From positions 11,538 to 75,537 of the forward strand of contig MU130318.1 in the NCBI GenBank assembly GCA_015039465.1: a stretch of DNA of 64,000 nt. The letters run 5' to 3'. The position numbers and the translations under genes were made by a program. The DNA comes from Phlegmacium glaucopus. Taxonomy: Eukaryota; Basidiomycota; Agaricomycetes; Agaricales; Cortinariaceae. Shown here one piece after another: positions 1 through 64,000 of the stretch. The notes below the pieces were generated by a model. It had not been told where the DNA came from, made no database searches, and saw only the letters and a program-made list of their open reading frames with translations. Numbering within the stretch: the first letter of the stretch is position 1; every line of letters begins with the position of its first letter.

Positions 1-1767
1 AGTTCGTCAAGGAAAGAACTCCGGTATCAGGTTGTCAAAGTCAAGACCGAGAGAGAAATGGATGACGCTATCGTAGCTCATCTACACACAGCCATATCAT
101 TGTATCGACGCGAGGACCGTGCTATTATCTTTACTCGGTCCAAGAATCAAGCGGCTGCACTTGCCCAACTTTTCAAAGTTAATCCCTACTACGCTGTTCA
201 GGACCAAGCGATGTTGGAGAGGAATAAAGATACGATGACAAAGTGGTTATCAGGCGAAAATAAAGTCATGGTATCGACCAGTATTTTGGGTTGTGGTATC
301 GATTATGCGCATATACAAGATGTTGTTCATCGAGAACCGTCTTTTTCAATGATTGATCAGTACCAGGAGGATTCGAGGGGAGGAAGGGATGGTTTGGAGT
401 GTAGAGCGACGACGTTTGTCGTCGATCAAAAGAAATATCAAGTGCCGAAGCAACTATACGACGTTGGGACGAAACTTTTATTGGAATCTATGAACGATAC
501 CGTCAATTGTCAACGAATCGCTCCTACTCTCTACCTTGATGGTCGTCCGGTTCAATGCATATCTCTTACTGGGGCAATCTTTTGTCAAAATTGTGATGAC
601 TCTGCCGGTAATCTTTCATCCATTAAAACCGCTATCACTACCATCACACCTCGGCGTCTGCCCATTTCTACCATTCCAACTCCTACCTCGACCATTCCTC
701 GTCGGCCTCCATCGCTTTCTGCTGCGTCTCTTTCTGCTCATACGCCTTCCAGCTTTCCAGGACATCTACCACCACGTCGTTCACACGACATATTTGACAC
801 CTCAAATCGTGTTGATCTTCGAGAGCTGCTCCGTCCTCCTAGGAAAAAATTTCATTCCTTGGATTCCATGAACGAGACTTTGCAATCTTCCCCTCTGAAA
901 AGACAAAAACTTTCACCAACTCCAATCCCACCTACGTAAGTGTTTGTCTACCGTTCTAGCTCTATAATAACCTTCTTTAGGTCATCGATATCTTTCCAAG
1001 GTCCTATGCGGACGTTGGAGTCGTCGCCTGTCTCTCCTACCGTAGGCCGTTCCTCGGGGCCCCCTCCTGCCCTTCGTGGATCTAAACCTGTTTCTTCCAC
1101 ACCTCGAAGACCTGATCGTCTAAGTGTAACCTTTGCCGAGCCTACTCCCAAGCGTCGCTCTGCTCATCCTGCGGGTATCCAAGCGAGACAACAACAAATT
1201 GCTGCTCAAAATGAGGCTCATGAGTTTAATACCAACGTCCAACAGCCCATTACACGAGCGTTCAATATATTTCAAAACACGTGCGTGATGTGTTGGATGT
1301 TTCGCAAGAGTGACTGGCGACTACATTGCTCTGACAATTGTCCTCGACGCACTGGAACACACGGTGGAGACCCAGAATATGCCACCTTTCGGTCTACAGC
1401 TATTCGACTACCTGCAGGCTGGTGTTTTTCGTGCCTTATCCATCAAGTAAGCCGTTCTCTTTTTCTCTGTGGATGATATTTACCAAGTCTCTATGTTCAG
1501 AAACGCATGGAACATCCTTTCTGCTCGCCTCGAGACTGTCCATGGCGAGGAATTATCACTCGGGTGATGTATATCTTTACAAAGATCCAAATTACATGTC
1601 CTTTTATGCCGGAAGATCTTGATGTTACAGTAACGCCAGACTTTTGTGCTTGGCTCAGTTCTGATCCTGGTGATTATATAGGGTCACCGTTTCATAACGG
1701 TTTAAAGCTTTTCTTATGGATAATTAGTGACTACGATCATTTAGAGGATGACCATCATTCGTATTAA
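1..1767 (+). CDS. RecQ-like DNA helicase, C-terminal part (5' end outside window)
   Basis: The reading frame is open from base 1, so the gene starts upstream. Three exons join in frame: 1-935, 981-1446 and 1501-1767, with GT-AG introns of 45 and 54 nt. The first exon carries the second helicase lobe: AIIFTRSKNQAAALAQLF (motif IV-like), STSILGCGIDY (motif V) and QEDSRGGRDG (motif VI, arginine finger region). These match the RecQ-like superfamily 2 helicases that are expanded in mushroom genomes. A Ser/Pro-rich linker follows, then a Cys-rich tail (CVMCWMF, HCSDNCP). The first lobe with Walker A and the DExH box is not in the window. The predicted role is ATP-driven 3'-5' DNA unwinding in the nucleus. 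It could be a degenerate repeat-associated copy, but all visible exons are open. Bases 1158-1767 are also represented in mirror image at 9153-9762. Confidence 0.8.
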
Positions 1768-2284
1768 CATCTTTTGCAAATGATTAATGAAGTTTATATT
1801 TACCACCCGGTCGTGTAATGGACAAATGAATACCACAGAAATGCACCAAAACTGAGAGGTAGGCAAAAGGTTTCGGAGCGAAGCGTTCTAAGGTGGTTTA
1901 GAATTAGGAAAGCCACCGAAATTGAGAGGTAGGCAAAAAGGCTTAGGCGCGGAGCGTATCATTTATTAGCGCCCAAAGGGCGTGGGTTTATTTGGAAAGT
2001 GTAATATATTATGTTATGTTATTGTGATGTGTATCGCATTTGGACTTGCTCATTTCGACACGCGATCACATGACTTCTCTTTGTTTACATTAGTATATCT
2101 TTATGGCCCACCGCGCCTTTTTCTTCTTACTATACTTTAATTCCACTGCTAAAAGACCGTGCTACGGCTTTAAGCAAATTCCTCTTCTTATAATCCTTGC
2201 ATAACCACCGTGTTACCGGTCGTTTAGTCAAACCAAACCCATCTTTTAAGCCCCCCCCATCCACTAGTCCATCAAGCCTACCCA
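1768..2284. other. Intergenic region between helicase and split JmjC-like gene
   Basis: No coding exon is seen. The stretch holds two partly repeated purine-rich segments sharing GAGAGGTAGGCAAAA (about 1855-1880 and 1925-1945) and a pyrimidine-rich zone just before the ATG at 2285 that could be a promoter. The whole stretch is present again, reversed without complementing, at about 8636-9152. Confidence 0.5.
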
Positions 2285-3554
2285 ATGTCCGCCCCAAACT
2301 CCTGGAGATCCGAACTCGGTGTTCGATCCAAACAGCCCCCTGTTGACCTAAACACTCTCAGGTATGCCTATCGTTGTTCTCATTCTACCTCAACTTACAA
2401 ATCCACAGCCCGGCTGAAAGAGTTATCGAGGAGGAGATTCGGAGGCGTAAGAGGGAGGCCACTAACAAAAGCCGGTATGGACCATTCTCACTCTTTTTCA
2501 TTGTCCTCCTTCCATTAAATCTTGTCCGCCAGGGACAAACAACGAGCAAGAAAGGCGGCAGGCCTGGATACGATCGATCCTGCCAAGCTAAAGCGGAAAC
2601 AGGAATATCAAAAGAACATCATGAAGGAAAAACGAGCGTAGGTTTCATTTTTTCGTATTGCTACACTGAAGATACAATCGTATAGGTTTGTAGACGAAAA
2701 GCAGTTGCCGGATCATCGAATCAAGCCTCTGGGAGGCTTTTAATCCCAAATGAAGATGTTGCTGAACCCATAGCCCTCGACCTTGACAGGTATTTTTATT
2801 CATACAACCCCCCAAAGCAACCGTGTACTCATTACCTGTTAGCCTAATTCCCATAGACCCCGCCTGGATGCCACAGGCTGGCCCCTCAAACGCGGATGCT
2901 GACGAGTAAGCTGCCTTCTTCACAAACTAAGCAAATTATATACCGACTCCTTCCTAGCGAAAAGATATATATCCATCCGATCTTGACGAACATGGATGTC
3001 AGGCCACCAACGCCGATAGATTACGACGAGTGAGTTAACTATTTGGACATTTTCACGCCCACTTTCAATTTGCTCCAGGGACATCGAAGAAATCGAATAT
3101 CTCCTTTTGTTGCGGGGAGACAGCCCCGATGTCAGTGATACCATGCAAACTTCCTCGTACGTCTTGTCGACCCACCGTGGCGTATCCATATACTCATTTT
3201 TATCTAGTCAAATAGAAAATCTTAACGATGACCCAACGCCCTCTACGGTGGCCACAGATACCGTTCCCCAAATACCTTCGTAAGTATTGTTAATCCCTCC
3301 GAATGTCCCTTTCCCGCTGATTACCTTTCAGCACAATTGAAATCGCCGAAGATGAACCCATGCCCTTTACGGTGGCCACAAATACCGTTCCCGAAATTCC
3401 ATGGTAGGTCTTGTTAATTCCTACGAATGCTTCTATCTGCTCATTACCTTTCAGCACAATTGAAATCGCTGAAGATGAACCCATGCCCTTTACGGTGGCC
3501 ACAGAGACAGTACCTCCAAGTACTAGGTAAGCACTATACATCCATACGACTACC
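2285..3554 (+). CDS. 5' half of a multi-exon gene (basic-region N-terminus), cut by an assembly gap
   Basis: Exons chain in frame from ATG 2285: 2285-2361, 2409-2474, 2533-2637, then about 2694-2789 and further short exons to 3526, all with GT-AG borders. The start encodes MSAPNSW. Exons 2 and 3 encode a strongly basic helical stretch (EEEIRRRKREATNKS, then DKQRARKAAG and KLKRKQEYQKN), which looks like a DNA-binding or nuclear basic region. The last three exons (3208-3279, 3332-3403, 3455-3526) are each exactly 72 nt and repeat a 24-residue module of the type IEIAEDEPMPFTVAT. The gene then runs into a 25-A tract. The last 167 bases are repeated at 9763-9929, where the exon chain continues into a JmjC-like domain, so I infer one gene. 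The exon 4 acceptor (after 2693) was chosen because it alone keeps the frame open. Confidence 0.6.
3208..3526 (+). repeat. Tandem exon-intron unit, three copies, period 123-124 bp
   Basis: Three 72-nt exons with about 51-nt introns are arranged at a constant period (starts 3208, 3332, 3455). Exon and intron are both repeated, so the duplication unit is genomic and adds an in-frame 24-residue module each time. A fourth, more diverged unit is at 9953-10015. The mirror block contains reversed equivalents starting at 7411, 7534 and 7658. Confidence 0.8.
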
Positions 3555-3579
3555 AAAAAAAAAAAAAAAAAAAAAAAAA
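3555..3579. other. Exact A25 tract, probable gap placeholder
   Basis: Exactly 25 A separate a truncated gene end from unrelated transposon DNA. The same length recurs at 7385-7409 and, plus one native A, at 15397-15422. Each tract sits where duplicated sequence is interrupted. I infer that 25 N were converted to A. Confidence 0.7.
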
Positions 3580-6500
3580 CTATCTATCTTATTGGAATAT
3601 CATGCATAAATATATGTAGCTGTTTTGGTGCATCTTCGATAAAATTCTGAGTGATATTTAAGATTTATAATTCTCTCAAATCAGTGACTTATTGGTGACT
3701 TTCTCTGAGCAGATAAACAACCAATAGGTGTGAATAAGTGAAGAATCAGCTCCAATATTTAGGACACCTGGCTGATTGGGCTGATTTGCCTTATGCCACT
3801 TACTCACAACTTAAATCAGCAGATTTTGCACTTACTATAGCATATTCTAACTTATAACTGCGGATCAGCAAGTGAGGTTTTTCCTGATGTTCTCTGTTAA
3901 TTACTAGATACAAAACTGCAGCTTCTACCACAGGTCCACAGCCAATGATGCTTCGTTTGACAGGCAAGGAACTTGCTCGACGTGGACCTGGTTTAAAGGC
4001 AGGATACCCCATCTCAAAATGACGAGAGAGAGCTTTATAACTTAGGGGTGAAGAGGCGATTTACGGTGAGTGTTACTTTTTACTAAAACCCCATCTACTC
4101 ACTATCAAATGGCTACTTCTGACCAGTGTGCGCTTGGGCCTGATGGAACAATGCTTGAACCCTCTGAGATCATATGGTTCAACGATCCTGACGATCCAAC
4201 CCCCATTCCACCTATCCAGCAAGCAGGAACTTTTCCAACTTTTCCTCCCAAATCACCTACCATCCATCCGTTTTTTCATGGCGGTCCTCCACCAGCCACC
4301 ATGGTTGCTGGATCACGACGTTCTACACGTGTCTCACATCCGTCAAAACGTGTCCTGGACCCAGATAACTCCGAACGCCCCAATGTGTCGAAGCGGCCTC
4401 GTCCTTCCTGCCGAAAAAATGTGGTTGAGTCCGACTCTGATGAGAAAGATGAAGATTCTGTTGATGATGGTCATGGGGATGGTGGTGCCGCTAACACAGA
4501 GGGTTTTGTGAGCGATGCTAACATCGACTCTGAGATGCTTGATGACTTGGAAGCAGTTGAAGAGGCGTACACAGCTACCAAGGTTATGGGTGACACCGAT
4601 CGTGAGGTATGTTTATATTCTTGTGTATTTTACTCCCATATCCCATTAATATTCTTTCGATCTGCATAGGCCCTTGCAAATCGCCCCAAGTCAGATCGCA
4701 CAGCCGATATTAGGACCATCTTCAAGCGCGATAAGGAGTATGTCAACCCCGAAACAGGAGCGACTGAAGATGGCCACTGGTGTACCCTCTGCCAGTCAGT
4801 CATTTCTCTCTTAACTTTTTTGCTTCATATCTCATGCCACTTGTCAGGGATGCTGGTATCCGAATCCGTAGTTGTTTCTTCTTGGGTAGTGTAACCTCCC
4901 TCCATAATCATATTGCTCGGTAAAATCCTTCTTCTCATCAATTGACTATTTTTCTAATCCTTTCAAACTAATCCTTAGTAACGCAGGACATGTAAAAATT
5001 TACACTGAGCGGTGCAAGAAACTTGGTATAGTAACAAATGAGCGAGTTTATGCAAAATCTGACAGCCTTGAGAGCATTGGGTGAGCCATACATATCTTTC
5101 TTGACACTAACACACTGACATTTTCCTGACAGGCCAACAAAGCAGGGTACCCTTGATAGTATCGTCACTCGCCAGCCTCGCCCACCTGCCTTTACAACCA
5201 AGGGACTGCTTGACTACATTGTTGAATTCGTTGTCTCTGAGGATGAGGTAATTTCAACGGTTAATTCTCATTCTATTCACACTAATTTAGAGCGGCCATT
5301 AATAGGCTTTTCACCTAATCGACAGGATGCCCTTCCGCCGCCTTCTCACATATCTTCGTCCTGCCCTTGCAGAAAAGGACTTACCCCATCGAACCAAACT
5401 TCGTGCTCAAATCCTTTCACGGGCAAAGATGTTGGAGCAGAAGATTTCTGGTATTTTCAAGGTAAATAGTTTAGGCTTGAGTTATTTAAGTTCCATGCTA
5501 ATAATTGAGTTGTGAAGGATATACCTGGAAAGGTTTCTTTTACATTCGATACCTGGACATCTGAGGCTGGAGACCCATATCTTTCAATGACCGGCCACTA
5601 CATCGCTGGCGCCAAAGAAAGTCCGCAGGATTGGGAGCTTAAGAGCGAGCAACTAGGCTTTACGCACATTGAAGGAAATCATTCAGGGGCTAATATTGGA
5701 GGTATTCTTATACAAATCATTGATAAATATGGAATTCGTCAGAAGGCAGGTGTTTTTAGGCATTCTATCAGTCAGCATTCCTTACCCACCCATGTATAGA
5801 TTGGCTGGTTTACTGCAGACAATGCATCCAACAACTTCTCTGCTATCAAAGAAGTTGCAGGGCAATTGAAGGACAATTTCGCTGACTGGGATCCTAAACA
5901 GCATTATGTTCGGTAAGGTTACTTTCGTTTTAAAGGAAATAAAGAGTCTAATGCAAAAATCTAAAGATGTATGGAGCATTCGATTGACCTCGCAGCTTGT
6001 CATTTCATTCAAGGCGTTGCTCCTTCATCAACGCAGAAAATTGTCAATAAAATCGGGGACTTTGGTGCAAATAACGATTCTGAGGGTGAAGAGGATGGCG
6101 ATGAAGTCGATATCTCTGATTCTGTTGGAAAAGCACTTGCTTTGGTGAAGCAGGTAAGCCCTTGTCTTGATGATACAATCTGTCTGAATAACTAATATTT
6201 ACTCTTAAGATCCGTGCGTCACCTCAAGCATGTGCATTCTTCGCTAAATCTTGTGAGAATGTTGATATCCCTTACATGCAACTTATGCTATGGGTCAGAA
6301 CACGCTGGGCTTCGCTATATGCATTTTTGGATCGCACTTTGAGTTTGAAGAAGGTATGTAGATTAAGAATCAATTGTTCTGGATTTATGTTGATCTGATT
6401 CATTTGATACTAGGCACTGAATCACTTCGCACAATTGGCAGATGAGAGCGATGAAGTTCCTAACCTAAAAGGAAAAAGTTATTCTGACTTCTACCTTCGT

Positions 6501-7384
6501 AAACGCGACTGGGAAAAGCTCGAGCTCATGCATGAAGTTCTCAAGGTATGTCGACAACAACTATTCACCTCTTTGCTCTATTTTGACGTGTCCATTTATT
6601 TTTATCGTCCAAGGAGCCTGCTAGTGCTAAGCAGACATTCTCAAGCTCGAAAGAGCCCAGCGCGTTTCGAACAATCCCCATCCTTGAATATCTTAAAGAA
6701 ACTTGGGGTAATATGGCGCAGCACCCTAAGTTCTCAGAAGTCGAGGGCCCAATTTACAAAGGGATTGAGAATCTAGATAAATGGTATAACAAAGTGAATG
6801 ATACTGATGCCTATTTCATCTGCCTCTGTACGTATTGGCTCCGAGTCCTCAATCAAAATCTACTCACTCACACTTTTATTTACAGTTCTTGATCCCAACA
6901 TCAAGAATGCATACGCACTTGACAAGTGGGATGCCAAATCCTACACCGCAGGTATGGCTCAGCTCGAGAAAGTGGTGCGTGCTGCTCTATAAATCCTATT
7001 TGGGTCGTGAATGAGGGGCTGAACAATTTCCAGTTTGATGCTTACTACGTCGCACCTGCCCAAGAACTCTCAGTTCCCATCACATCCTCATGTACGCTAG
7101 AATAAATATTGGTCTCAATGTATTTTTCTAATGTTGATTTTTCAGCTCGCAATGTATCCAGTACTCAATATGGATATTCTTGGATGCGTGCTTCTGTCCA
7201 CTCTCGTCAAGAAGCTGAGCGTTTCAGTTCAGGGCCAAGAGACGAGCTCAAGAGGTACTTAGATAGCCCTCTCGAAGAAGTTGATGGCGTGGTTGCATGG
7301 TGGGGAGTAAGTAATTTTGGATTTCATTGTTGGACATCCATTCTAACCTGTTACAACTTCATAGCATCACTCCTTCCAATATCC
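3580..7384 (+). mobile_element. hAT-family DNA transposon, 5' portion
   Basis: The segment holds the 5' non-coding region (3580-4108) and most of an hAT transposase gene, and is bounded by A25 tracts on both sides. No terminal inverted repeat is visible near 3580, so the left end is missing. Its last 712 bases (6673-7384) are nearly identical to 15423-16131, where the 3' end of an hAT element lies. I infer the two are halves of one element, or two close copies, misplaced during scaffolding. Confidence 0.75.
4109..7384 (+). CDS. hAT transposase, 3' end cut by gap
   Basis: The start is ATG 4109 (MATSDQCALG). Exon 1 ends at 4606 and exon 2 starts at 4670; at least ten further short introns follow. 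In order, the protein has a Pro-rich and acidic N-terminus, a BED-like zinc finger (WCTLCQ, then NHIAR), the family hallmark FTFDTWTS followed by PYLSMTGHY, GWFTADNASNN (second catalytic Asp region), CMEHSIDLAACHF, the insertion helices (WVRTRWASLYAF), and the start of the hATC dimerisation domain (LKRYLDSP, then WWG). These are the known landmarks of hAT transposases, which cut and paste DNA using DDE catalysis. The rest of the hATC domain is missing here because the sequence runs into A25, but it is present in the copy at 15423-16427. Confidence 0.85.
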
Positions 7385-7409
7385 AAAAAAAAAAAAAAAA
7401 AAAAAAAAA
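7385..7409. other. Exact A25 tract, probable gap placeholder
   Basis: Exactly 25 A follow the hAT exon at ...CCAATATCC. In the second copy the same exon continues past this point (16132 onward) without any A run, so the tract is foreign to the gene. The mirror-image block starts immediately to its right. Confidence 0.75.
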
Positions 7410-9762
7410 GCCATAAACACCGGTGGCATTTCCCGTACCCAAGTAGAAGCCGCTAAAGTTAACACGACTTTCCATTACTCGTCTATCTTCGTAAGCATCC
7501 TTAATTGTTCTGGATGGTACCTTAAAGCCCTTGCCATAAACACCGGTGGCATTTCCCGTACCCAAGTAGAAGCCGCTAAAGTTAACACGACTTTCCGTTA
7601 ATCGCCCTTTCCCTGTAAGCCTCCCTAATTGTTATGAATGCTTCCATAAACCCCTTGCCATAGACACCGGTGGCATCTCCCGCAACCCAGTAGCAATTCT
7701 AAAAGATAAACTGATCTATTTTTACTCATATACCTATGCGGTGCCACCCAGCTGTTCTGCATGCTCCTTCAAACGTACCATAGTGACTGTAGCCCCGACA
7801 GAGGGGCGTTGTTTTCCTCTATAAGCTAAAGAAGCTACAGGGACCTCGTTTAACTTTCACCCGCACTTTTACAGGTTTATCAATTGAGTGAGCAGCATTA
7901 GATAGCCGCAACCACCGGACTGTAGGTACAAGCAGTTCTAGCCTACCTATATATAGAAAAGCGATCCTTCCTCAGCCATATATTAAACGAATCAAACACT
8001 TCTTCCGTCGAATGAGCAGTCGTAGGCGCAAACTCCCCGGTCGGACACCGTAGGTCCGCCCCAGATACCCTTAATCCGATTGTCCATTACTCATGTGCCA
8101 ACGAAACCCCCCAACATACTTATTTTTATGGACAGTTCCAGCTCCCGATACCCAAGTCGTTGTAGAAGTAAACCCTAATTTTCGGAGGGTCTCCGAACTA
8201 AGCTACTAGGCCGTTGACGAAAAGCAGATGTTTGGATATGCTAACATAGAAGTCACATCGTTATGCTTTTTTACTTTGGATGCGAGCAAAAAGGAAGTAC
8301 TACAAGAAAACTATAAGGACAAAGGCGAAATCGAACCGTCCTAGCTAGCATAGGTCCGGACGGCGGAAAGAACGAGCAACAAACAGGGACCGCCTGTTCT
8401 AAATTACCTTCCTCCTGTTGCTTTTTCTCACTCTTACCCCGTATGGCCGAAAACAATCACCGGAGGGAGAATGCGGAGGCTTAGAGGAGGAGCTATTGAG
8501 AAAGCCGGCCCGACACCTAAACATTCAACTCCATCTTACTGTTGTTGCTATCGGTATGGACTCTCATAAGTCCAGTTGTCCCCCGACAAACCTAGCTTGT
8601 GGCTCAAGCCTAGAGGTCCTCAAACCCCACCTGTAACCCATCCGAACTACCTGACCACCTACCCCCACCGAATTTTCTACCCAAACCTAACCGATTTGCT
8701 GGCCATTTTGCCACCAATACGTTCCTAATATTCTTCTCCTTAAACGAATTTCGGCATCGTGCCAGAAAATCGTCACCTTAATTTCATATCATTCTTCTTT
8801 TTCCGCGCCACCCGGTATTTCTATATGGTTACATTTGTTTCTCTTCAGTACACTAGCGCACAGCTTTACTCGTTCAGGTTTACGCTATGTGTAGTGTTAT
8901 TGTATTGTATTATATAATGTGAACGGTTTATTTGGGTGCGGGAAACCCGCGATTATTTACTATGCGAGGCGCGGATTCGGAAAAACGGATGGAGAGTTAA
9001 AGCCACCGAAGGGATTAAGATTTGGTGGAATCTTGCGAAGCGAGGCTTTGGGGAACGGATGGAGAGTCAAAACCACCTAAGGACACCATAAGTAAATTGG
9101 TAATGTGCTGGCCCATCATTTATATTTGAAGTTATTAGTAACCGTTTTCTACAATTATGCTTACTACCAGTAGGAGATTTGCTAGCATCAGTGATTAATA
9201 GGTATTCTTTTCGAAATTTGGCAATACTTTGCCACTGGGATACATTAGTGGTCCTAGTCTTGACTCGGTTCGTGTTTTCAGACCACAATGACATTGTAGT
9301 TCTAGCAGGCCGTATTTTCCTGTACATTAAACCTCGAAACATTTCTACATGTAGTGGGCTCACTATTAAGGAGCGGTACCTGTCAGAGCTCCGCTCGTCT
9401 TTCCTACAAGGTACGCAAAGACTTGTATCTCTAAACCACTTATAGTAGGTGTCTCTTTTTCTCTTGCCGAATGAACTACCTATTCCGTGCTTTTTGTGGT
9501 AGGACGTCCATCAGCTTATCGACATCTGGCTTTCCACCGTATAAGACCCAGAGGCGGCACACAAGGTCACGCAGCTCCTGTTAACAGTCTCGTTACATCA
9601 GCGGTCAGTGAGAACGCTTTGTAGGTTGTGTAGTGCGTGCACAAAACTTTATATAACTTCCGAGCACATTACCCGACAACCTGCAACCATACTTTGAGTA
9701 CTCGGAGTAAAACTCGACGTTAAACAACAACAGAGCGAACCTATGGGCGTCCTACTCGTCTC
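7410..9762. repeat. Mirror-image (reversed, not complemented) copy of 1158-3510
   Basis: Reading this block from right to left on the same strand reproduces the left part of the window. The position rule is that paired coordinates sum to 10,920 with only small local shifts. Examples: 8632-8637 TGTAAC mirrors 2283-2288 CAATGT; the string at 8050 mirrors that ending at 2870; 9751-9762 mirrors 1158-1169. Identity is high but not complete (a few substitutions and a small indel around the 2200-2290 equivalent), so the source was a second allele or close copy. All ORFs called inside it are meaningless. No biological process inverts polarity without complementing, so this is best read as a data artefact. 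Confidence 0.9.
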
Positions 9763-9929
9763 TTCCCGAAATTCCATGGTAGGTCTTGTTAATTCCTACG
9801 AATGCTTCTATCTGCTCATTACCTTTCAGCACAATTGAAATCGCTGAAGATGAACCCCTGCCCTTTACGGTGGCCACAGAGACAGTACCTCCAAGTACTA
9901 GGTAAGCACTATACCTCCATACGACTACC
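9763..9929 (+). repeat. Direct repeat of 3388-3554
   Basis: The 167 bases match 3388-3554 at a constant offset of 6375, with only a couple of substitutions (for example CCCCTG for CCCATG). The match begins exactly where the mirror block ends and stops exactly where the first A25 begins at 3555. This is the pattern of two contigs that overlap but were not merged. Confidence 0.85.
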
Positions 9930-12043
9930 TCTTATCGCTAAAGTCCTTCAAGTATAATTGAAATTTTAGATGACGAACCCATGTGCCTGACAGTGCCCAG
10001 ATCGCCCACACCTCGGTAGAAATTAAATTTCACCATGATATTAACCATTAACTCAATGTCCATCCAGAGCGTTGCCAGATCCTCCTGAAGACCAAGCCCT
10101 GCGGGACCTCTCCCCTCTCACGGCCTTGGGATCCTCCGAGTGAGTCTTTTATTAATTGGCCTCGTAAATCACTCTCAAGTCTCTCCAGTCCACCAGATGA
10201 CGCATATGCATGCGCGCCGGGCACTCCAGAGCCCTATCAGAGTCCAAATATCGACCCACCTTCCTTCGGTGCATCAGATAGAGCCAATGCAGATGTTATT
10301 GACACTCCACGGTCCTCTCAGGCTTCCCCCTCACGGCTGACCATCCGTATTCCGCCTCGTGTCCCCGTTGAACACGACTATACGACTCTCGTTGGCTGCC
10401 CGTTCCTCCCGCAGACGCCAAGCGTCGTCTGGCCTGGTGGGACTGTCAAGACCAACCTCCCTTGGCTTCCGCACCCAGACAATCCCGAGGAGAACCTCAT
10501 GGCAAAGGTATGTTTTTCGTCAAAAATCTAAATGGGTTTTATACTAAGGTTATCGTCAGGACGAGAAACACGTTAGAGGTTTGGCAGAAACCGGTCGACC
10601 GGCCTCTGAAAGCGATTGGATATCCATTGTCCGATATGAAGACTACGCGGACGAATTCGCGCTTGGACAACACATTCGGGAACAAATCGCTCAAAGCCAT
10701 GCCGTTGTCGTGCGTGGGTGCCCATACCGTCCCATTCCCCTCGATGCCCAGCAAATTTGGAAGGGTATGAGGATACCCCCGGGCCAGACGCTCAACGTTC
10801 ACGGTTCGTATCTATTCCATTCTTTATGAAACATGTCTAATTATAGTTCCAGATGGCGCCAAAAGAGTTGAAGACGTGGCCATGCCCTTCAAATTCATGA
10901 CATTGGAGGACTTTTGTGAAGGTCAAAGGGATCCCAACAAGATCCAATGCGTGTTGCATTGTCCAACGGTCGATGGGAGCAGACCAGAGCTCATCCGGTA
11001 AACATTCTCTTTATTTCCACTCCCCATTACTAAGTCATATTAGCCAAGTCGACGAAGGACACACGGCGTGGTATCAACTCCAACATCCTTTTCATAGGGT
11101 GCGGGAGTCAATACCACTCGATGTGCAAAGCTCCAGTTCTTGGCTGCTGTTCCACCAGGCCCTCTGGCACACGTACGCCCACCATGATGCCGAGGGCTAT
11201 GGCACCTGGTCCCAGGTACTCCATGGGCTCAAAATCTGGGTTCTCATGCGCTCTCCACGCCATGACCGTTTTAAATCGCGCAAAGACATTTATGAGGCCT
11301 CCAACAAACTGCACAACGATGCCTTTACTGGAGACGGCGAATACTCAAAGAACTCGGAGCGGTTTGTCATTTATGCAACCCCGGGCGATCTAATGTAAGC
11401 CCTGATCCTGTGGTTTTCTACCTCTTAACTGATTATCCCTTCCAGTTTTCAATACCCCGGTTGCAAACACGAGGTCTACACGCCCGTACCGTCTGTTGTC
11501 CTTGGTGGACATTTTTATACCTACAATTCGCTTCATCTGACCGAGCTCTGGCGCGCGATTGACAAGCGGACAAATTCGCGATTCACCAATCAAACGCATC
11601 CGAATTCCACCCTCACGATCATGATGATGATGGCTGCGCTGCCTATCCTCCAAGAATCTCGTACGTGCTGTGCCTTCTTTTTTTCTGATGCTGTATTTAA
11701 CCCTTTTTGTTTATGTCCAGATCTTCGTCGAAAATCACTGGCAGCGTTGTGTAGAATGGTTCTCCATGTCTCTGACTACTCAGGCCCTATCGCTGACCGG
11801 GACCTTGTCATATACAATTCCAAACGGCCCAAGAAATACAAGGTCAAGGAAATGCCGGATGTGGAATACGCCAAGCAGCTTGCCAAGAAGCTTCAGACCA
11901 AGATGGCATTGAAGCTCGATGTCTGTCATTCCCTTCAGTCTTCCTCCGGCCCCGAGGACTTTCTATTTACGCCTCCAGGTTGGGTTCATCCAGGGGATCT
12001 TATTAGATGGAAAGAGGAATTTAATGTACCATATCCGGTGTAG
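9763..12043 (+). CDS. JmjC-like protein, 3' portion of the gene begun at 2285
   Basis: Exons: 9830-9901, 9953-10015, about 10068-10139, 10187-10506, 10560-about 10803, 10853-10998, 11042-11395, 11447-11669 and 11721-12043, all with GT-AG junctions. After Pro-rich repeats the protein has a conserved core: SDWISIVRYEDYAD, VVRGCPYRPIP, WYQLQHPF, then FHQALWHTYAHHDAEGYGTW, GLKIWVLMRSP, ATPGDLIFQYPGCKHEVYTP and VVLGGHFY. The HHD and the distal KHEVY are consistent with the HxD...H iron-binding triad of JmjC/cupin oxygenases. The predicted activity is Fe(II)/2-oxoglutarate-dependent hydroxylation or demethylation. Related proteins form lineage-specific expansions in mushrooms, and activity of this one is unproven. 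The N-terminus is at 2285-3526 if the contigs are joined. It ends ...VPYPV with TAG at 12043. Confidence 0.7.
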
Positions 12044-12135
12044 ATAATCGCAGTTCTTGTCTTCTCTTGGCAATTAATTTTTTTCTCCACTCGCTATAAA
12101 TCTCATGTGTCTAAATCGTTACTAACCTGCAGAAT

Positions 12136-13257
12136 ATGCCCCTCCCAGTATTACCTGTTGAGACCCGTTCTCAGATTTTTGCATACCTCAACGACACGAA
12201 CATTGCCCAACACATCCCAGAGGCCTTTTGGGCGATGGCACCCGATTATATCCGCCACCTTCACCTCGGCTGGACGTACACCTTTGACATGGTTCACACT
12301 CAAACGAAGTTGGTTGACAAGTATCCCAACTGTGGCCACCTGGTCGAACGGCTTAGTATTTTGAGCGACCAGACCTCGGCTGGTGTCGTCACCAAGTTTT
12401 TGCAGAACTTTCCTCCCTATCGCAAGCTCAAACATCTATGAATTACTCTGGCCGCACATCCCAGACAATCCATTACCTCTGCCAGCGCTTTACCGTTCCT
12501 CTCCCTTCTAGAAACTCTGATAGCCACCTCCCCCGATCTACGACGAATTTCATTTGTCCATATACACCCCTCTCCATTACTGATCAACGCTGCGGCCGCT
12601 CGTCTAACTCGCCTAGACATTGGCCACTTTTATCCCTCGGAACGTGCAATTTCTGTGCCTCTTACCCCCTTACTCGAGATTTTATCGGTTACAGCCAGTG
12701 TCTTTACGCATATCACGGACCCTCCTCCAGCCACTCTTCGCACTGTCATCATCAAGACTGATATCTTGCCCTCCTTTTTTCTGACGAGGGACTGCCACTC
12801 TTTTCTGGCACGATGTACCCACCTGACTGGCCTTGCTATTGTCGATCGCAGTGAGCAGCCCTCCCTTTTTTTACCTCTCTGTTAGTAACCGCTCTTTCGT
12901 TTAGCTCCTCGCAACTCTCCCCTCATCGCCATTGTCAAGAACCTCAAACCACCGATACTCAACGTTTGTTTCAAATTCACCCAACCCTATCTCGATGCGG
13001 TCGAAAATGTCCAGGAAATGCTCCTTCCCGGAGAGGTTACTTTCAAAATTTGCACGTTTATATTGTGCATGAGTGCTCATACAGCCTCTATCCGAGCCAC
13101 TTGCCGAGACAATACCCAACTCTTCGTCGAGGCTTTCAATTTGGACGCCTGTTTCGTTTACTGTGGAGACAAGGATCTTCACCCAGAGGCCCATACACCC
13201 GCGCAGAAGGAAATACTACATGAATGGGTTCGCATCGTCGATGCTTTAGGCAATTGA
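12136..13257 (+). pseudogene. F-box/leucine-rich-like gene with in-frame stop
   Basis: ATG 12136 opens MPLPVLPVETRSQIFAYL, an F-box-like start (LPVE...IFAYL). The frame meets TGA at 12439-12441 (...RKLKHL stop), but the same frame then stays open and looks coding for over 400 nt: ITLAAHPRQSITS, LPFLSLLETLIATSPDLRR, LTRLDIGHFYP, LEILSVTASVFTHI, CTHLTGLAIVDR. An intron at about 12850-12904 follows, and then an exon to TGA 13257 (QEMLLPGEVTFKI ... HEWVRIVDALGN). The pattern LRRIS...LTRLDI...LTGLAIV resembles the repeats of fungal F-box proteins. No splice donor lies near the stop that would remove it. It is either a single nonsense mutation or a sequencing error. F-box proteins normally choose substrates for SCF ubiquitin ligases. 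Confidence 0.6.
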
Positions 13258-13767
13258 AATTTTACTACTTGTAATTAAACATTAGAATGATTATTATTCT
13301 CTGACCTTGGCCTAATATCCGTTCGCTCTACTTATGTATAAATATAGCGCGCTTGTCTTTAATTAGATGATATATTACGGGTATTCTAAAAGTGTAATAA
13401 TGTAGTTGCTTCTTTGTTTGTCCAAGTTTGATCTCAGGGCCAACTTTTTTTTTTTTCTTCTCCACCACTACGATCATTCGCCTCGCCAACAGTACCTCCT
13501 TATCTTCCCTTTTAACGTCAATCAAAACAGCTGAACACCGTGTTTCGGTGTGCAGTCAATAGTTAATCCCGCCCTCTTCCTTAATCCCGCTCAGACAACC
13601 GTGTTTCGGTGTCTAGTCACTTTACAGGCCCCCTCATCCATCACCGTTGTGTTTATATCGTATTAATACTAATACCAATACCATACATCCCATTAAATTG
13701 AATCCTATATACCCCGTAAGCCTCCAAAAACAAGGAGAAACTATGTCCGACTGAAATTTAGACCTAG
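13258..13767. other. Intergenic region with repeated small hairpin
   Basis: No gene is seen. The string ACCGTGTTTCGGTGT, which can fold into a small hairpin, occurs twice about 60 bp apart (near 13537 and 13598), each followed by a similar (C/T)AGTCA tail. A pyrimidine tract (T12) lies at about 13445. Confidence 0.4.
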
Positions 13768-14088
13768 ATGATGCAAGATACGCAGACCTCCCCCGCTATC
13801 CAACCTACGCCAACTTCCCCAGAGACCCAAGATACGCAGACCTCCCAAGAGACCCAAGATACGCAGACCTCCCAAGAGACCCAGCATACGGAGACTTCCA
13901 CAGAGACCCCCGCAACCATCGACGAAAGCGAATTTATCCGACCCAAAATCAATGAGGTGTGTACATTCACGAGTTTTTTCTTCAACGAGCCGTCTAACAT
14001 ATCACAGTACAGAAAAGCCCAACACCTCAAAATCCACCTGATTTTCGAGGACCCCAACTTTGCACATGTCCTCTGGTTACTAGGATGA
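13768..14088 (+). CDS. Short hypothetical protein with Thr/Gln-rich tandem repeats
   Basis: The ORF MMQDTQTSPAIQPTPTSPETQ consists of tandem octapeptides of the type DTQTSQET, encoded by 24-bp repeats (about 13,776-13,910), then a non-repeated tail TPATIDESEFIRPKINE. A donor GTGTGT follows at about 13956 and an acceptor about 50 nt later could extend it (YRKAQHLKIHLIFEDPNFAHVLWLLG). It is not recognised. It may be the start of a gene interrupted by the repeats that begin at 14095, or just a coding-like minisatellite. Confidence 0.35.
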   Translation: MMQDTQTSPAIQPTPTSPETQDTQTSQETQDTQTSQETQHTETSTETPATIDESEFIRPKINEVCTFTSFFFNEPSNISQYRKAQHLKIHLIFEDPNFAHVLWLLG

Positions 14089-15396
14089 AGTAGGGTCATA
14101 CTAGGGTCGGACCTTTGATCATACTAGGGTCAGGCCTTGGGATCATACTGGGGTCCAAGGAGAATTTTACAATGCAGGACCCAGTACTTGCAATTTTTTG
14201 ATGAGATGAGTGATGAATCAAGTGATAAGTCCAGCAATCAGGGAAGTGATCAAGCCATACATCCACACTTGTCACCAACAACTTGTTTTGTGCCCATCTT
14301 GTGCTTGCCCTGCTGAGTGGTAGGATTTTTTGGTAAGTGTACTCTCCAATGTACTTCTTTTAACTTGCCTCTTCCCAGGTCACCAGTACTTTGAAGCTCA
14401 TATGGACACTATTCTCAATTTCATTATATTATCCCCACCACCTACACCTGTCAACGACAAGCACAATGGGAATAGAGATTGACTGGACATTATTCTCAAC
14501 TTCATATTATCTCCACCACCTACACATGTCAAAGACAAGCACAATAGGAATAGGTAGATTTACTGCACACTATTCTCAATTTCATAATATTCACCCCACC
14601 ACCTACACCCGTCGACGACGAGCACAATGTTGTAAGATCTTGTGTTACTGGGTGTTTTTTCATCAAGACCACGCTGTAATCTGCTGATAAATGTGATACT
14701 AGGTTTAAGAATGTGTTGTTGGTTGTGCTGCTGCGCTTTTGATTCCACAATTTTGAACGCACATGGATTCGTTGACTGGTAAGTATCTGTTTCCATCTTT
14801 TCTTGCTCTTTATTAACTTCTCCTTTTTCCTCCACAGTTTTTTTTGTCTCAGACGAGTGCAGGTTTTCTGATTGGTAAATGCTGATTCCTTTATTTTCTT
14901 TCTGTCCATTAACTTTTCTTCTTTCCAGCCTCTCATCATCTACCTCTTCCTGGACTTCTTTTATTGTGAAATCTATCATTTCTTCATGTTCAACACCCCC
15001 TTCCCACCTTTCTCTGAATCCTGGCACTTGTTGGTGAATTCTGTTTGTGTATATTTCTCATCATCTCTGGTTTGTATTGTAGGGCTTTGACTGGACATTA
15101 TTTCCAATTTCATATTACATAATATTCACCTCACCAGGTACACTCGTCGACGACAAGCACAATTGACTGGAGACTATTCTCAATTTCATATTATCTCCAC
15201 CACCTACACCTGTCAATAACGAGCACAATAGGAATAGAGATTAACTCTTATCACAAGTCATTTAGATGGATAAGGATAACACGAACCGCAGCTGCCCACA
15301 TCCACCACCTCTATTATACTTTAACTCTTATTAGAGGTCAGTTAGATAGAGATAAGGATAACACGAACAGCAGCTGCCCACGGCCACCACCCCTAT
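14089..15396. repeat. Minisatellite-rich, probably non-genic DNA
   Basis: First, three copies of ATACTAGGGTC-like units lie at 14098-14160. Second, a unit of about 85 bp containing ATTCTCAATTTCATATTAT ... CCACCACCTACACC occurs at about 14403, 14488 and 14565 and again at about 15088 and 15172. Third, two copies of a roughly 100-bp unit (TAACTCTTAT ... GCAGCTGCCCAC) lie at 15245-15394. Between 14640 and 15085 a different stretch is inserted. It has splice-like signals on the plus strand and a 155-codon Lys/Glu-rich minus-strand ORF (15027-14560), neither convincing. Confidence 0.5.
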
Positions 15397-15422
15397 AAAA
15401 AAAAAAAAAAAAAAAAAAAAAA
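15397..15422. other. A26 tract, probable gap placeholder (25 plus one native A)
   Basis: Twenty-six A precede CAATCCCC. In the intact hAT copy this site reads GAACAATCCCC, so at least one A is native, which leaves about 25 added. The sequence to the right starts in the middle of an hAT exon. Confidence 0.7.
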
Positions 15423-16427
15423 CAATCCCCATCCTTGAATATCTTAAAGAAACTTGGGGTAATATGGCGCAGCACCCTAAGTTCTCAGAAGTCGAGGGCC
15501 CAATTTACAAAGGGATTGAGAATCTAGATAAATGGTATAACAAAGTGAATGATACTGATGCCTATTTCATCTGCCTCTGTACGTATCGGCTCCTCAATCA
15601 AAATCTACTCACTCACACTTTTATTTACAGTTCTTGATCCCAACATCAAGAATGCATATGCACTTGACAAGTGGGATGCCAAATCCTACACCGCAGGTAT
15701 GGCTCAGCTCGAGAAAGTGGTGCGTGCTGCTCTATAAATCCTATTTGGGTCGTGAATGAGGGGCTGAACAATTTCCAGTTTGATGCTTACTACGTCACAC
15801 CTGCCCAAGAACTCTCAGTTCCCATCACATCCTCATGTACGCTAGAATAAATATTGGTCTCAATATATTTTTCTAATGTTGATTTTTCAGCTTGCAATGT
15901 ATCCAGTACTCAATATGGATATTCTTGGATGCGTGCTTCTGTCCGCTCTCATCAAGAAGCTGAGCATTTCAGTTCAGGGCCAAGAGACGAGCTCAAGAGG
16001 TACTTAGATAGCCCTCTCGAAGAAGTTGATGGCGTGGTTGCATGGTGGGGAGTAAGTAATTTTGGATTTCATTGTTGGACATCCATTCTAACCTGTTACA
16101 ACTTCATAGCATCACTCCTTCCAATATCCTACCCTTTCGAGTATGGCCCGTGATTATCTCGCTATTCAAGGGTCCGCTACACCTTCAGAGCGAGCATTTT
16201 CGAGTGGAGGGACCACCGGAACTGCCAAACGCAACCATCTCAATGTTGAAGTCTTCGAGGCCCTCCAATTGCTCAAAAATGCTTATCGAAATGGGCACGT
16301 TGGTGCTCGCTTGGATGCTGAAAAACACACAATTAACCTCTTAGACATTTTCAAGACTAATGGTGATGTTGATGTCAAAGTGGATGCCGCATGCAAGGGA
16401 AAAGGCCGCGAGAGCGATTTTGAATGA
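15423..16427 (+). pseudogene. hAT transposase, C-terminal part including hATC dimerisation domain
   Basis: This repeats the exons seen at 6673-7384 with few differences (for instance a 6-bp deletion in the intron after the exon ending YFICL) and then continues: HHSFQYPTLSSMARDYLAIQ, GSATPSERAFSSGGTTGTAKRNHLNVEVFEALQ. That is the hATC dimerisation motif (SERxFSxGG...R..L....E.LxxLK), ending in an acidic tail with TGA at 16427. The 5' two thirds are absent because of the A tract. Joined to 4109-7384 it would give a full-length transposase. The two copies may be the same locus assembled twice. Confidence 0.8.
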
Positions 16428-16642: not shown

Positions 16643-19600
16643 TGTATATGACGAAACTACAAAATCGGAAATGTATGATCCTCGCTCGTATGCTGGGCCG
16701 TATACCCCAGCTGCATGGAGTGGAAGAAATGCGAGTGGGCCAGTTGGGCACCACCATATACGGCGTTGATCTGAAGGATTTGGAGGGACTGCAAAAGATC
16801 AGCATAAATAAGTTGACAATAGCCAACACCTTACCGAGTATCCTAGCGCTTTGAGGATTGGTTCGACAACTTTACACCACAGTTCGTTTAGAACAAGCGA
16901 CATGGATGATGGATCAAGGCTGACACGCAGAGGCATGCGATCACGATCTTCCACCTCCCGTTGCTTGAGTAGGCCAACTTGAAGGGTCTTCTGTAGTTGC
17001 TCTGCCTGCACGAGACTGAAGTTCTCTAGAGGGATGTGCAGAGGTTCCGATATCCCAGCTATAAGAGCCAATGCATCACATCGGGTGTCGTGAATGTTGA
17101 AGATGACGACTGGACCATCAGAAGGTAATGAGGACAGGAAGTCGCTGGCCTTAGGTGGCTGAAGAAAGTCATGGAAATCTGGAAGATCCCGAATCTCTTT
17201 AAGAAGTTGCCTATACTCTGTAGCGTGGAGGGTATGATTTTGAGTGTCATCCTGAAGGCGAATGTTTTCTGCAAGTGTCGCATGCGAAGAAGGAATTGAC
17301 AATGCTGAACGATTTCCGTAGGACTCTAAAGTACTTGCGGCCTGTATGAAGCGATTGGCCAAGGATGGATTCTCCATGCGAAGATTGTCAATTGGTGTAC
17401 GGAGTTGGTTGAGTTGATTCCACACCAAGCAGCGGCCTTGCTCAAGCCATTCAAGTGCAAGATCAGCTTTATTGAAACGGAGAGCGGTAGCCACAGCAGA
17501 TCCCACAAGATCAGAATAGTCGCGAAGGTTAGCATGACGGCGATGGATTGTTTGTTCCAACCCAGCAACCTCTGAGAGCAGACTAATGGCATTCGCAAAA
17601 TCAACTAAGCAGTGAAAGTCATCAAAGTCTGAGGATAGCTTGGCCGCAAGCATGGCAGACTGCAGACGAATGGATGGGGTGCCATTTGCCTCAGCAGCTT
17701 GACGGTATGAAGCAACACTGTTTTGGACATCAGGGAAATAACTTGTGTGTTGGAAGCGGTGCCAGTAAGATTTGCCAAGATTGTTGGAGTAAACTGGGAG
17801 GTCAGCATGGCCAGAAGGAGTGGTTTCAACAGCAATCTGATGGTAAGATATAGCATGGTCAATATCCTGGAGGTCGCCAGTGCGTTCAAAGCGACATGCG
17901 CACGAATTTCCAAGGCTGTTGAACCAATTCGGAAGGGCAACATGGCCAGAAGGAGTGGACTGGACAGTGTTCTGGTGGTGGGATATGGCATGGTCGATAT
18001 CCTGGAGGTCACCGGTGTGTTCAAAGCGATGTGCATACGAATTTCCAAGGCTGTTGAACCAACTCGGAAGGTCAGCATGGCCAGAAGGAGTGGATTGGAC
18101 AGCTTTCTGGTGGTAGGATATGGCATGGTCAATATCCTGGAGGTCGCCAGTGTATTCAAAGTGACATAAGTATGAATTTCCAAGGTTGTTGAACCGACTC
18201 GGAAGGTTAGCATGGCTAGAAGGAGTGGATTCAACAGCATTCTGGTGGTAGGATAGGGCATGGTCAATATCCTGGAGGTCGCCATTGTATTCAAAGCGAC
18301 GTAAGTACGAAGTTCCAAGGTTGTTGAACCGATTCGGGAGGTCAGCATGGCCAGAAGGAGTGGATTCAACGGCATTTTGGTGGTGGGATATGGCATGGTC
18401 AATATCCTGGAGGTTGCCGGTGTGTCCAAAACGACGTGCATATGAATTTCCAAGGCTGTTGAACCAACTCAGAAGATCAACATGGCCAGAAGGAGTGGAT
18501 TGGACAGCGCTCTGGTGGTGGGATATGGCATGGTCAACATCCCAAATGTCGCCGGTGCGTTTAAAGCGACATAAGTACGAAATTCCAAGGTTGTTGAATA
18601 AACCCGGAAGGTGAGCATGGCCAGAAGGAGCGGACTCAACAGCATTCTGGTGGTGGGATAGGGCATGGTCAATGTCCTGGAGGTCGCCAGTGCATTCAAA
18701 GCGACGTAAGTATGAATTTCCAAGGTTGCTGAACCGTCTTGGAAGGTGAGCATGACCAGAAGGAGTGGATTCGACAGCATTCTGGTGGTGGGATAGGGCA
18801 TGGTCAATATCCTGGAGGTCACCAGTGCGTTCGAAGCCACATAAGTACGAATTTCCAAGGTTGTTGAATCGACTTGGAAGGTCAGCATGGCCAGAGGGAG
18901 TGGATTCAACAGCGTTCTGGTGGTGGGATAAGGCACGGTCAATGTCCTGGAGGTCACCGGTGTGTTCAAAGCGACGTAAGTATGAAGTTCCAAGGTTGTT
19001 GAACCTACTTGGAAGGTTGGCATGGCCAGAAGGGGTGGATTCAACAGCATTCTGGTGGTGGTATATGGCATGGTCAATATCCTGGAGGTTGCCGGTGTGT
19101 TCAAAATGACGGAAGTACGAATTTCCAAGGTTGTAGGATATGACGGGAACTTCGGGAAGGACATCGAGACCAGGTGGAATCAAGGAAATTGCCTTTTTAT
19201 AATGAAAAATTACTTGAGTAATGTCGTCCATGTTTCCTGTCTCTTCGAAGCGCCGCTGGAATGTCTCGGCGGTAGTAATAGCGTTACGCAAGTCAGAGAT
19301 AGTACTTAGTGCTACTCCTCTGGCACCGTTCATAGCACCTGACTGAAAGGTAGAACTTGAAGCTACAAATCAGTCAATAGATGGATCTGAAAGCGGTCAA
19401 CCTCACATACATATTGTAGAGGTCATTTTGATGGACATGGGATTATCCTCTTTAAATGACGCGAACACATACTCCGCTGGAGTGTCTACAGGCCGACCAT
19501 AATAAGCACGTGTAGGGGGGACAAATGAATATCTTTAGCGTACCTTCCTCTGCACACACCATGACGTTGGCCGTGAATGTAAGGAAAGCAACATCACCCC

Positions 19601-38331: not shown

Positions 38332-40489
38332 TATGGCAACAGAACCTGGACTGCCCTGTTTTTGATCAGCGAACACCGTTAGCCGACCGAACTTAGTCAC
38401 CGGTGTGCCGGATTACTAATTTAGTAATATATATCTGTGACATTGGAATTTTGGGAGTGGATTTCTAATAACTTTCCTGCTCCTCGACGTTACCTCAAGT
38501 GATTTTGGAGATATTTAGAAGCAATATGTCTTAATAAAAAGTTAAAATGAGTTCCCAATATGTACAATGCTGTTTTTAATTTGTTTTTAATGAAGTTGTG
38601 GCAGGTCACATCATGTCACATGTGGCAGAATTCTGATGTCAATCAAGTATCTCGGGATCCGCTAGGCCTACGATGACGATTTTGGGTGCGTTAGAATTGC
38701 ATTGAGGAGTAGATGTGTTCCCCACCTTAAAATATATGGTTTGGTCAATTTTTGGTAGAAATTGAAAATGAGGATCTTGAGAATGCTAAGCATGAATTCC
38801 TGAGACAATGACATGGTAAAAAAAATTGTTCTCTTGGAAAACAGTTCTAATGTATACAAATGAGTGAACCCCATCAGAAAATTGGTAAATTTTTGGTGTT
38901 GTGCAAGCAAAATTTGAAGGTGCTGTTACTGTTTACCTGCTGTACTGTAGGCTACACCAACTTCCAAACATGCATAATGTGCCAAGCTTTGCACCTTCAG
39001 TATTCTTATTGCCTTACTTTTAGTTTAGCTTGAAAAATATAATAAAACTCAGTGTCTGTGAGTGATAAAGCAAATGAATTTATTCAAATTTACCTGAAAG
39101 AGACATCATGATAACAAAGCTTCAAATACATGGTAAGCAAATGAAATATGTAAGGATTTAAGCTCACTCAATGTTTGCAAGTGATAAAAGCAAACAACTG
39201 AAGAGAAATGTCACAGTGAAATACTATATATGCAAAAGTAAGAAATGAACTAAATTACAACAGTGGTACAACTTGACAAGTACTAGTAGAACAAAATGAC
39301 AGCTCTCAACTAGGGCATAGAGGAATGAGTAAGATATGACATAGTATTAGAGTAATAAAATCACCATGATAAATTATTATGGTGAGGCAGCAGGAGAAAT
39401 GGTTTAAAATGATGGGTGCATGAGTCTTGTCACTTGTGATCAGCTTGTGATATCCAATTCAGATGTAAGTGGTCTATGGAGTTCAGAATACAAAGGTACA
39501 CTTGTTCACTGTAGACCTCAGTCATTTGCCTACCAAAATGAGGTAAAGTACTATATCAGCAAACTCCGATTTTTGTCATAGTGGGTTATAGCAAAATATA
39601 GTAAGATATAGCATGGGTCCCTATCTCTGTAGCACTACAGAGATAGGGACCCATGCTATATCTTATTATATTTTGCTATAACTCACTATGACAAAAAATC
39701 TGAGTTTGCTGATGTATTGCTTATTTCTTAGTACTTACAAACATTCAAGTTTACTTGTATGCCATCTAGGAATTTTTGTGCCTAGGTACAGATATTAATA
39801 TAAACTTATTGTATGCCTAAACACTTAAAATTCCAGCAAGCTACAACTGGGTGAACCTGCCAGTGGGTGGATTATCATTAACTTGAGTCTTGGGCCAGCA
39901 TCTTCAAATTTTACTTGCACAACACCAAAAATTTACCAATTTTCTGATGGGGTTCACTCATTTGTATACATTAGAACTGTTTTCCAAGAGAATGATTTTT
40001 TTTACCATGTCATTGTCTCAGGAATTCATGCTTAGCATTCTCAAGATCCTCATTTTCAATTTCTACCAAAAATTGACCAAACCATATATTTTAAGGTGGG
40101 GAACACATCTACTCCTCAATGCAATTCTAACGCACCCAAAATCATCATCGTAGGCCTAGCGGATCCCGAGATACTTGATTGACATCAGAATTCTGCCACA
40201 TGTGACATGATGTGACCTGCCACAACTTCATTAAAAACAAATTAAAAACAGCATTGTACATATTGGGAACTCATTTTAACTTTTTATTAAGACATATTGC
40301 TTCTAAGTATCTCCAAAATCACTTGAGGCAACGTCGAGGAGCAGGAAAGTTATTAGAAATCCACTCCCAAAATTTCAATGTCACAGATATATATTACTAA
40401 ATTAGTAATCCGGCACACCGGTGACTAAGGTCGGTCGGCTAACGGTGTTCGCTGATCAAAAACAGGGCAGTCCAGGTTCTGTTGCCATA
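38332..40489. mobile_element. 2.16-kb element with 594-bp terminal inverted repeats
   Basis: The left arm 38332-38925 and right arm 39896-40489 are long near-perfect inverted repeats beginning TATGGCAACAGAACC. The flanking direct repeat is CTAAAC (38326-38331 and 40490-40495). The two 80-codon ORFs in the arms are mirror images of the same repeat DNA and are not evidence of a gene. The 970-bp interior is AT-rich with no transposase, and holds a second, nested hairpin (39555-39712, arms about 75 bp with a 3-nt loop around GATAGGGACCCATGCTATAT). This is a non-autonomous element or foldback transposon of unknown superfamily. Confidence 0.8.
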
Positions 40490-62600: not shown

Positions 62601-64000
62601 CCGTCGAATCCACCCCTTCTGGCCATGCCAACCTTCCGAGTAGGTTCAACAATCTTGGAACTTCGTACCTACGTCGCTTTGAACGCATCGGCGACCTCCA
62701 GGATATTGATCGTGCCATATCCTACCAGCAAAGTGCTGTCGACTCGACTCCTTCTGGCCGTGCCGACCTTCCGGGTTGGCTCAGCAGTCTTGGAATGTCG
62801 CACTCAATTCGCTTCAAACACACCCGTGACCTCCAGGATATTGACCATGCTATATCCTACCAGCAGAGTGCTTTAAAATCCACTCCTTCCGGCCATGCCA
62901 GCCTTCTACGTCAGTTCAACAATCTTGGAAATTCATACTTACTTCGCTTCGAATGCGCCGGCGATCTCCAAGATATTGATCGTGCCATATCCTACCACCA
63001 GAGTGCGGTTGAATCCACCCCTCCTGGCTATGCTGACCTTCCAAGTAGATTCAATAACCTTGGAACTTCGTACTTACGCCGCTTCGAACGCACCGGCGAC
63101 CTCCGGGATGTTGACCATGCCATATCCTACCAGCAGAGTGCTGTCAAATCTACTCCTTCTGGCCATGCCAACCTTCCAGGTAGGTTCAACAACCTTGGAA
63201 CTTCGTACTTACATCGCTTTGAACGCACCGGAGACCTCCTCGATATTGACCATGCCATATCCAATCACCAGAGTGCTCTCAAATCCACGCCTTCTGGCCA
63301 TGCTAACCTTCCGACTAGGTTCAACAATCTTGGAACTTCGTACTTACGTCGCTTTGAACGCACCGGAGACCTCCTGGATATTGACCATGCCATATCCCAC
63401 CACCAGAGTGCCCTCAAATCCACTCCTTCTAGCCATGCTGACTTTCCGAGTTGCTTCAACAATCTTGGAAATTCGTACTTGCGTCGCTTCGAACGCACTG
63501 GCGACCTCCAGGATATCGACCATGCCATATCCTACCAGCAGAGTGCTCTCAAATCCACTCCTTCTGGTCATGCCGACCTTCTGAGCTACCTCAACAATCT
63601 TGGAAATTCGTACTCGGTTCGCTTCGAAAGCACCCGCGACCTCGAGGATATTGACCATGCCATATCATACCTCCAGAGTGCTGTCGAATCTACTCCTTCT
63701 GGCCATGCCAACCTTCCAAGTTGGTTCAACAATCTTGGAACTGCGTGCACACTTCGCTTTGAATGCACCTACGACCTTCAGGATATTGACCGTGCCATAT
63801 CCTACCACCAAACTGGTGTCGAATCCACTCCTTCTGGCCATGCCAACCTCCCGCGTCAGTTTGACGCCCTTGGAACTTCGTACTCACTTCGCTTCGAAAG
63901 CACTGGCAACCTCCAAGATATCGACCGCGGGATATCCCACCATCAGAATGCTGTTGAAACAACTCCCTCTGGCCATGCCCTTCTCCCACTTTACTTCAAA
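59690..64000 (+). repeat. Segmental duplication, copy B (inverted relative to 16651-22275)
   Basis: The plus strand matches the minus strand of 16,651-22,275 over the upstream DNA (59,690-61,277) and the TPR gene. It lacks the MITE and hAT insertions. It carries a segment of about 107 bp (59,880-59,985) that copy A lacks. Confidence 0.75.
61278..64000 (+). CDS. TPR-repeat protein, frame-intact paralogue (3' end outside window)
   Basis: Exons 61278-61473, 61527-61665, 61735-61979 and 62028-64000 join in phase. The start is MVTSDHTDEVEIRQ. DIFLECSPPHHFNDELT and SSKKWKAVENIDF form the C2-like N-terminal module, then VCAEEGTPKIFIYPPM and YVFESVEEDNSMSVKM. The last exon starts SSSTFRSGAMISAGGVALG and has at least twelve 44-residue repeats (FNNLGTSYLRRFERTGD, LQDIDHAISYQQSAV, STPSGHA) before the window ends in an open frame. 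Unlike copy A it has five C at 61,871-61,875 and stays in frame. By comparison with copy A the C-terminus should be a CHAT domain, which is not visible here. TPRs are protein-binding scaffolds, and the near-identity of units suggests ongoing unit gain and loss. Confidence 0.8.

Follow-up and report, generated by a model that had tools for sequence, protein, structure and literature searches.

The window analysed here is a stretch of 64,000 nucleotides of Phlegmacium glaucopus DNA lying within contig C112 of a 60.5-Mb, 259-contig assembly. Near its left end, an open reading frame (58-936) carries a Helicase_C match (PF00271, Pfam search) just upstream of the region 1158-3510. Further right lie sequences related to a hAT-type transposon, runs of adenine of nearly constant length, and two blocks that read as mirror images of nearby sequence. 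The features considered below, in window positions, are as follows.

1158-3510, plus strand: forward source of the first mirrored block, following the helicase-type open reading frame, and multi-exon gene with 123-bp units
3388-3554, plus strand: left contig end, directly duplicated at 9763-9929 (by alignment; 40 of 40 bases at its start)
3555-3579, plus strand: filler of exactly 25 A, no adjacent mirrored block found in the window
3580-7384, plus strand: hAT-type transposon sequence with a filler on each side, truncated within an exon at 7384
7385-7409, plus strand: filler of exactly 25 A, directly before the mirrored block
7410-9762, no strand: mirrored block, a reversed, uncomplemented string that probably extends leftwards the contig beginning at 9763
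9763-9929, plus strand: right contig start, equal to forward 3388-3554 (by alignment)
14403-14628, plus strand: tandem units in forward orientation, matching the second mirrored block after plain reversal (83-89%)
15241-15396, no strand: second mirrored block, mirroring 14430-14581 at 89% with 4 gap positions and adjoining the third filler from the left
15397-15422, plus strand: run of 26 A, interpreted as a 25-A filler joined by one A of the flanking sequence
15423-16424, plus strand: 3' part of a second hAT copy, starting abruptly after the filler

The window also contains two tandem arrays (17745-19134 and 62247-63999) with a period of about 135 bases, which lie in mutually opposite orientation and are about 78-83% alike, and an inverted repeat of 594 bases at 98.5% identity (38332-38925 and 39896-40489).

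Positions 7410-9762, reversed without complementing, reproduce 1158-3510. The original prediction had described the block as a mirror copy of this region and expected more than 90% identity from end to end after plain reversal; ungapped alignment gave 98.09% identity over 2353 bases (2308/2353), with 45 differences and no indels. The paired coordinates sum to 10,920 along the entire block, as predicted, and the mirrored splice sites and start codon it had listed would be covered by this base-by-base match as a whole. Every other relation between the two regions was far weaker, at 25.2% for direct comparison, 22.5% for complement only and 0.4% for the reverse complement, and the last value rules out an ordinary inverted repeat or inversion. 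When the reversed block was slid ungapped along the window (starts 5001-9801 excluded), the best match at any other place was 29.2%; the mean was 25.3% with a standard deviation of 0.97%, the true place being counted in the mean. The mirrored pair was absent among the best 80 self-BLAST matches of the window, in agreement with the expectation that ordinary BLAST would miss it. Complement-only relations within the window consisted only of homopolymer runs among the matches listed.

The differences between the forward and mirrored copies comprised 25 transitions and 20 transversions, and were unevenly placed. In forward coordinates, 39 of the 45 fell at 1203-2500 and none at 2501-3318. These substitutions, together with the lack of indels, are consistent with the suggestion that the mirrored copy derives from a second allele or close copy. 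The predicted borders at 7410 and 9762 also held, with one refinement: positions 7410-7416 match 3504-3510 at only 4 of 7 bases, whereas all 7 agree with 3381-3387 of the preceding 123-bp unit. Because the block's end fits the preceding unit, block and right contig together exceed the forward copy by one 123-bp unit. The lengths agree, since the turned block plus 9763-9929 makes 2520 bases and forward 1158-3554 makes 2397, a difference of 123 or one repeat unit.

The right border of the block joins the neighbouring contig to the base. Turned round, the block ends as forward 3348-3387 (40/40 bases), and the right contig, from 9763, picks up at forward 3388 (40/40). The turned block is thereby shown to be the sequence that properly precedes this contig, without a single base lost or gained at the join. 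As deposited, the block instead meets 9763 with its far end, which corresponds to forward 1158. The deposited block is an in-place string reversal of sequence belonging to the left of this contig, bordered by a 25-A filler (7385-7409) on its left and by the true contig start (9763) on its right. The direct duplication of 167 bases between 3388-3554 and 9763-9929, which the original prediction did not include, places the end of the left contig and the start of the right contig on the same sequence, and the two contigs thus overlap.

The exact 25-A runs at 3555-3579 and 7385-7409, also absent from the original prediction, belong to an assembly-wide class. Counting exact A runs across the assembly on the written strand and on the other strand, we found 2 and 3 of 20 A, 0 and 1 of 24 A, 157 and 1 of 25 A, and 72 and 1 of 26 A. 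This strand bias (157 vs 1), the fixed length and the lack of any forward run of 24 rule out natural poly(A); one-stranded runs of fixed length are instead gap fillers on the deposited strand, and the data show that these poly(A)-like runs are a fixed 25-base filler. The 26-A class is the same filler with one flanking base that happens to be A: the ratio of 26-A to 25-A runs (72/157, or 0.46) compares with 0.55 expected from a chance A beside a 25-base filler. The filler may originally have been 25 N, changed to A by a letter conversion either in the assembly pipeline or in the data copy that we analysed. A search of the whole assembly for 40 A gave no sign of longer gaps converted to A. It returned 87 forward and 80 reverse overlapping matches, so no A run can exceed 126 bases and long runs occur on both strands.

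The sequence between the first two fillers resembles a hAT transposon. Positions 6670-7384 are 98% identical to 15421-16129, and the exon cut at 7384 continues in this second copy at 16110-16424, which contains a hAT dimerisation domain (PF05699, E = 1.2e-10, Pfam search). Pfam searches with the individual open frames in 4070-6773 found nothing. The hAT piece at 3580-7384 may have been placed there by the same scaffolding step.

Another copy of the locus was found on contig C43 (12.8 kb), which represents the second allele or else a close paralogue. Its positions 1-2867 align with window 515-3378 at 93.7%, and 2685-6945 align with window 9817-14080 at 90.9%; the two pieces overlap because of the tandem units. 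This contig is collinear across the site and lacks the 6.2-kb insert between the aligned parts. At the positions where the forward and mirrored copies differ, C43 sides with the forward copy 20 times and with the mirrored copy 20 times, and all three differ once; the mirrored copy is therefore no worse a sequence than the forward one. Region 1158-3510, its mirrored copy and C43 644-2867 make three distinct versions of the locus, exceeding the number expected in a plain dikaryon.

The original prediction concerned a reversal at this place; the reversal was borne out, and further mirrored blocks occur in the same assembly. Of the window's three fillers, one lacks an adjoining mirrored block. Beyond the window, we sampled the first 30 of the 157 listed 25-A sites (3-kb loci L006-L035), two more of the 157 being fillers of this window. 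At L021 (57/57 bases) and L035 (94/97), the filler directly adjoined a plain-reversed copy of sequence found elsewhere in that 3-kb locus. Beyond the mirrored piece at these two loci, the continuation did not match that of the source (14/60 and 19/60), and a base-exact in-place flip was seen only at the window site.

Searching the genome with reversed 100-base flanks, we found that at least 14 of the 30 filler sites had a partner of at least 94% identity over at least 95 bases. Such partners were found for the right flanks of L009, L010, L013, L014, L016, L021, L029, L031 and L035, and for the left flanks of L007, L016, L017, L018, L019, L021 and L032. We scored 40 of 319 and 40 of 1285 candidate matches in the reversed-flank searches and 40 of 1239 in the search with unreversed flanks, which makes these counts lower bounds. 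With L011 (90%) included, at least 10 of 30 right flanks had a reversed partner. The search for unreversed copies covered right flanks only. Among these ten, at least four (L009, L011, L014 and L029) are repeats that also occur unreversed among the 40 of 1239 candidates scored, and repeats present in both polarities do not show which copy is backwards. The other six occurred unreversed only at their own place among the same scored matches, with L031 found also in a neighbouring unit of 85% identity. The left-flank site L032 lies within a tandem array that is itself mirror-symmetric. Because of this symmetry and of the flanks repeated in both polarities, these counts need not equal the number of backwards blocks.

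Other relations also appeared in this sample. A plain-reversed match of 695 bases at 99.4% links L009 (2322-3015) with L014 (421-1115) on different contigs, and involves a repeat found in both polarities. At L018, on contig C21, positions 1-386 and 2639-3027 flank a filler and stand in a complement-only relation (398 columns, 85.7%).

Control sequences were 30 reversed 100-mers from filler-free parts of C112, two of them overlapping, with repeat content unmatched to that of the filler sites. None of the 30 had a full-length reversed partner of at least 94%; four had one at 85-91% and one had a shorter partner. One of these matches led to a stretch of contig C26 with a mirrored repeat and another to a mirrored block on contig C107. 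There, L047 1-1786 carries the base-by-base complement of C112 sequence (L043, 3366-5151), unreversed in order, at 1780/1786 bases (99.7%), which makes it a plain reversal of the opposite strand of C112 over at least 1786 bases. Normally aligning sequence starts immediately to the right of this block. On the left, the block extends beyond the stretch examined, in which the sole filler lies about 4.4 kb to the right, so no contact with a filler was seen.

A polarity reversal of 2.35 kb, one-stranded fillers, a base-exact join and further mirrored blocks together fit a reversal made in the computer. The block at 7410-9762 is not a feature of the organism and serves no biological function; that it is an artefact, of whatever kind, is as good as certain. 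Our preferred and, in our judgement, quite probable explanation is that a gap filler extended contigs into gaps, that these extensions were written as reversed strings, and that gaps of 25 N became 25 A. At this locus, the contig that ends at 3554 and the one that starts at 9763 have 167 bases in common, yet stand as neighbours across gaps. The block would then be the left-end extension of the contig at 9763, made by a long-read gap filler and written backwards through an orientation error. A tool of the PBJelly type, which leaves 25 N at overfilled gaps, would be our guess. An extension written backwards would show no detectable overlap with the opposite side, and would therefore leave behind a filler, a mirrored block and duplicate contig ends. 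The original prediction had proposed a contig written backwards. Its computer-side reversal is supported, with the refinement that the block looks like an extension of one contig's left end and less like a whole contig.

PBJelly treats runs of 25 or more N as gaps and extends contig ends into them, and it flags gaps as overfilled where the extensions fail to overlap (PMC3504050). Hybrid fungal assemblies have been patched with it, in a report with no known tie to the present genome (PMC7550596). The block shows 0 indels against the forward copy, whereas mean identities of 88.61-95.17% are reported for PBJelly fill on simulated reads in one benchmark (PMC8848313), a difference that corrected reads would explain. 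The absence of indels across 2353 bases thus points to an extension built from accurate or corrected sequence, or to a tool other than PBJelly. Among the matches listed in a literature search, we found no gap-filler bug that writes reversed extensions, although one may still exist.

Several other origins were weighed against this gap-filling error. The block could be a separate piece, such as a haplotig from the second nucleus, which a scaffolding program or a manual edit put in place backwards, with no gap filler involved. The 45 substitutions without indels resemble a second haplotype more than read error, and the even split of C43 over the differences (20 forward, 20 mirrored) points the same way; however, the base-exact meeting of the turned block with the right contig suits an extension better, and similar blocks adjoin other fixed 25-base fillers. 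We regard a separate piece as unlikely, but as the most serious competitor. Much less credible is a reversal introduced while the data copy analysed here was prepared and absent from the public assembly. The window and the searched genome do share one source, and the change from N to A could be a packing effect, but the borders of the blocks fall at contig joins and fillers, of which later copying would not know.

Neither a cellular origin nor coincidence offers a credible account. A real mirror-image duplication made in the cell might be suggested by the length and high identity of the block and by the adjoining transposon sequence. Template copying and strand exchange keep antiparallel polarity, however, and we reject such a duplication as extremely improbable because the left border is a filler of fixed length and C43 lacks the block. 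Chance or low-complexity mirror similarity, arising from approximate palindromes or tandem repeats, could draw on the 123-bp tandem units at the locus and on high-scoring matches of repeats to reversed sequence, as described in one study (PMC11099658). It is refuted by 98.09% identity over 2353 bases against a maximum of 29.2% elsewhere in the window, and its probability is negligible.

The interest of the finding is one of data quality. The mirrored block breaks the gene model at the locus. Since it is only reversed, it is invisible to standard two-strand aligners; mirror blocks likewise escape dot plots, and so pass as unique sequence, inflate genome size and split genes. They should also attract no reads. 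Reversed sequence serves as a null for alignment statistics, as outlined in one account (PMC2829014), and reversed blocks within the data would spoil that control. Aligning an assembly to its own plain reversal and inspecting the gap flanks would be a cheap screen. A broader proposal, which we hold only tentatively and think somewhat improbable, is that a widely used gap filler, or one version of it, writes extensions backwards, and that many public drafts carry kilobase mirror blocks beside short gaps that are counted as unique.

The locus resembles three known systems in part. Overfilled gaps, as the relevant passages of the PBJelly description present them (PMC3504050), share with it end extensions that do not meet, a 25-N threshold and duplicated sequence around the gap; unlike the locus, they come, in those passages, with no mention of reversed, uncomplemented extensions or of fillers converted to A. 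Inversion misassemblies also place a wrongly oriented block at a contig join, but that block is reverse complemented, whereas the one described here is only reversed. Mirror repeats of the H-DNA type have the same reversed symmetry on one strand; they are short and rich in purines or pyrimidines, whereas the block at this locus is 2.35 kb of gene sequence.
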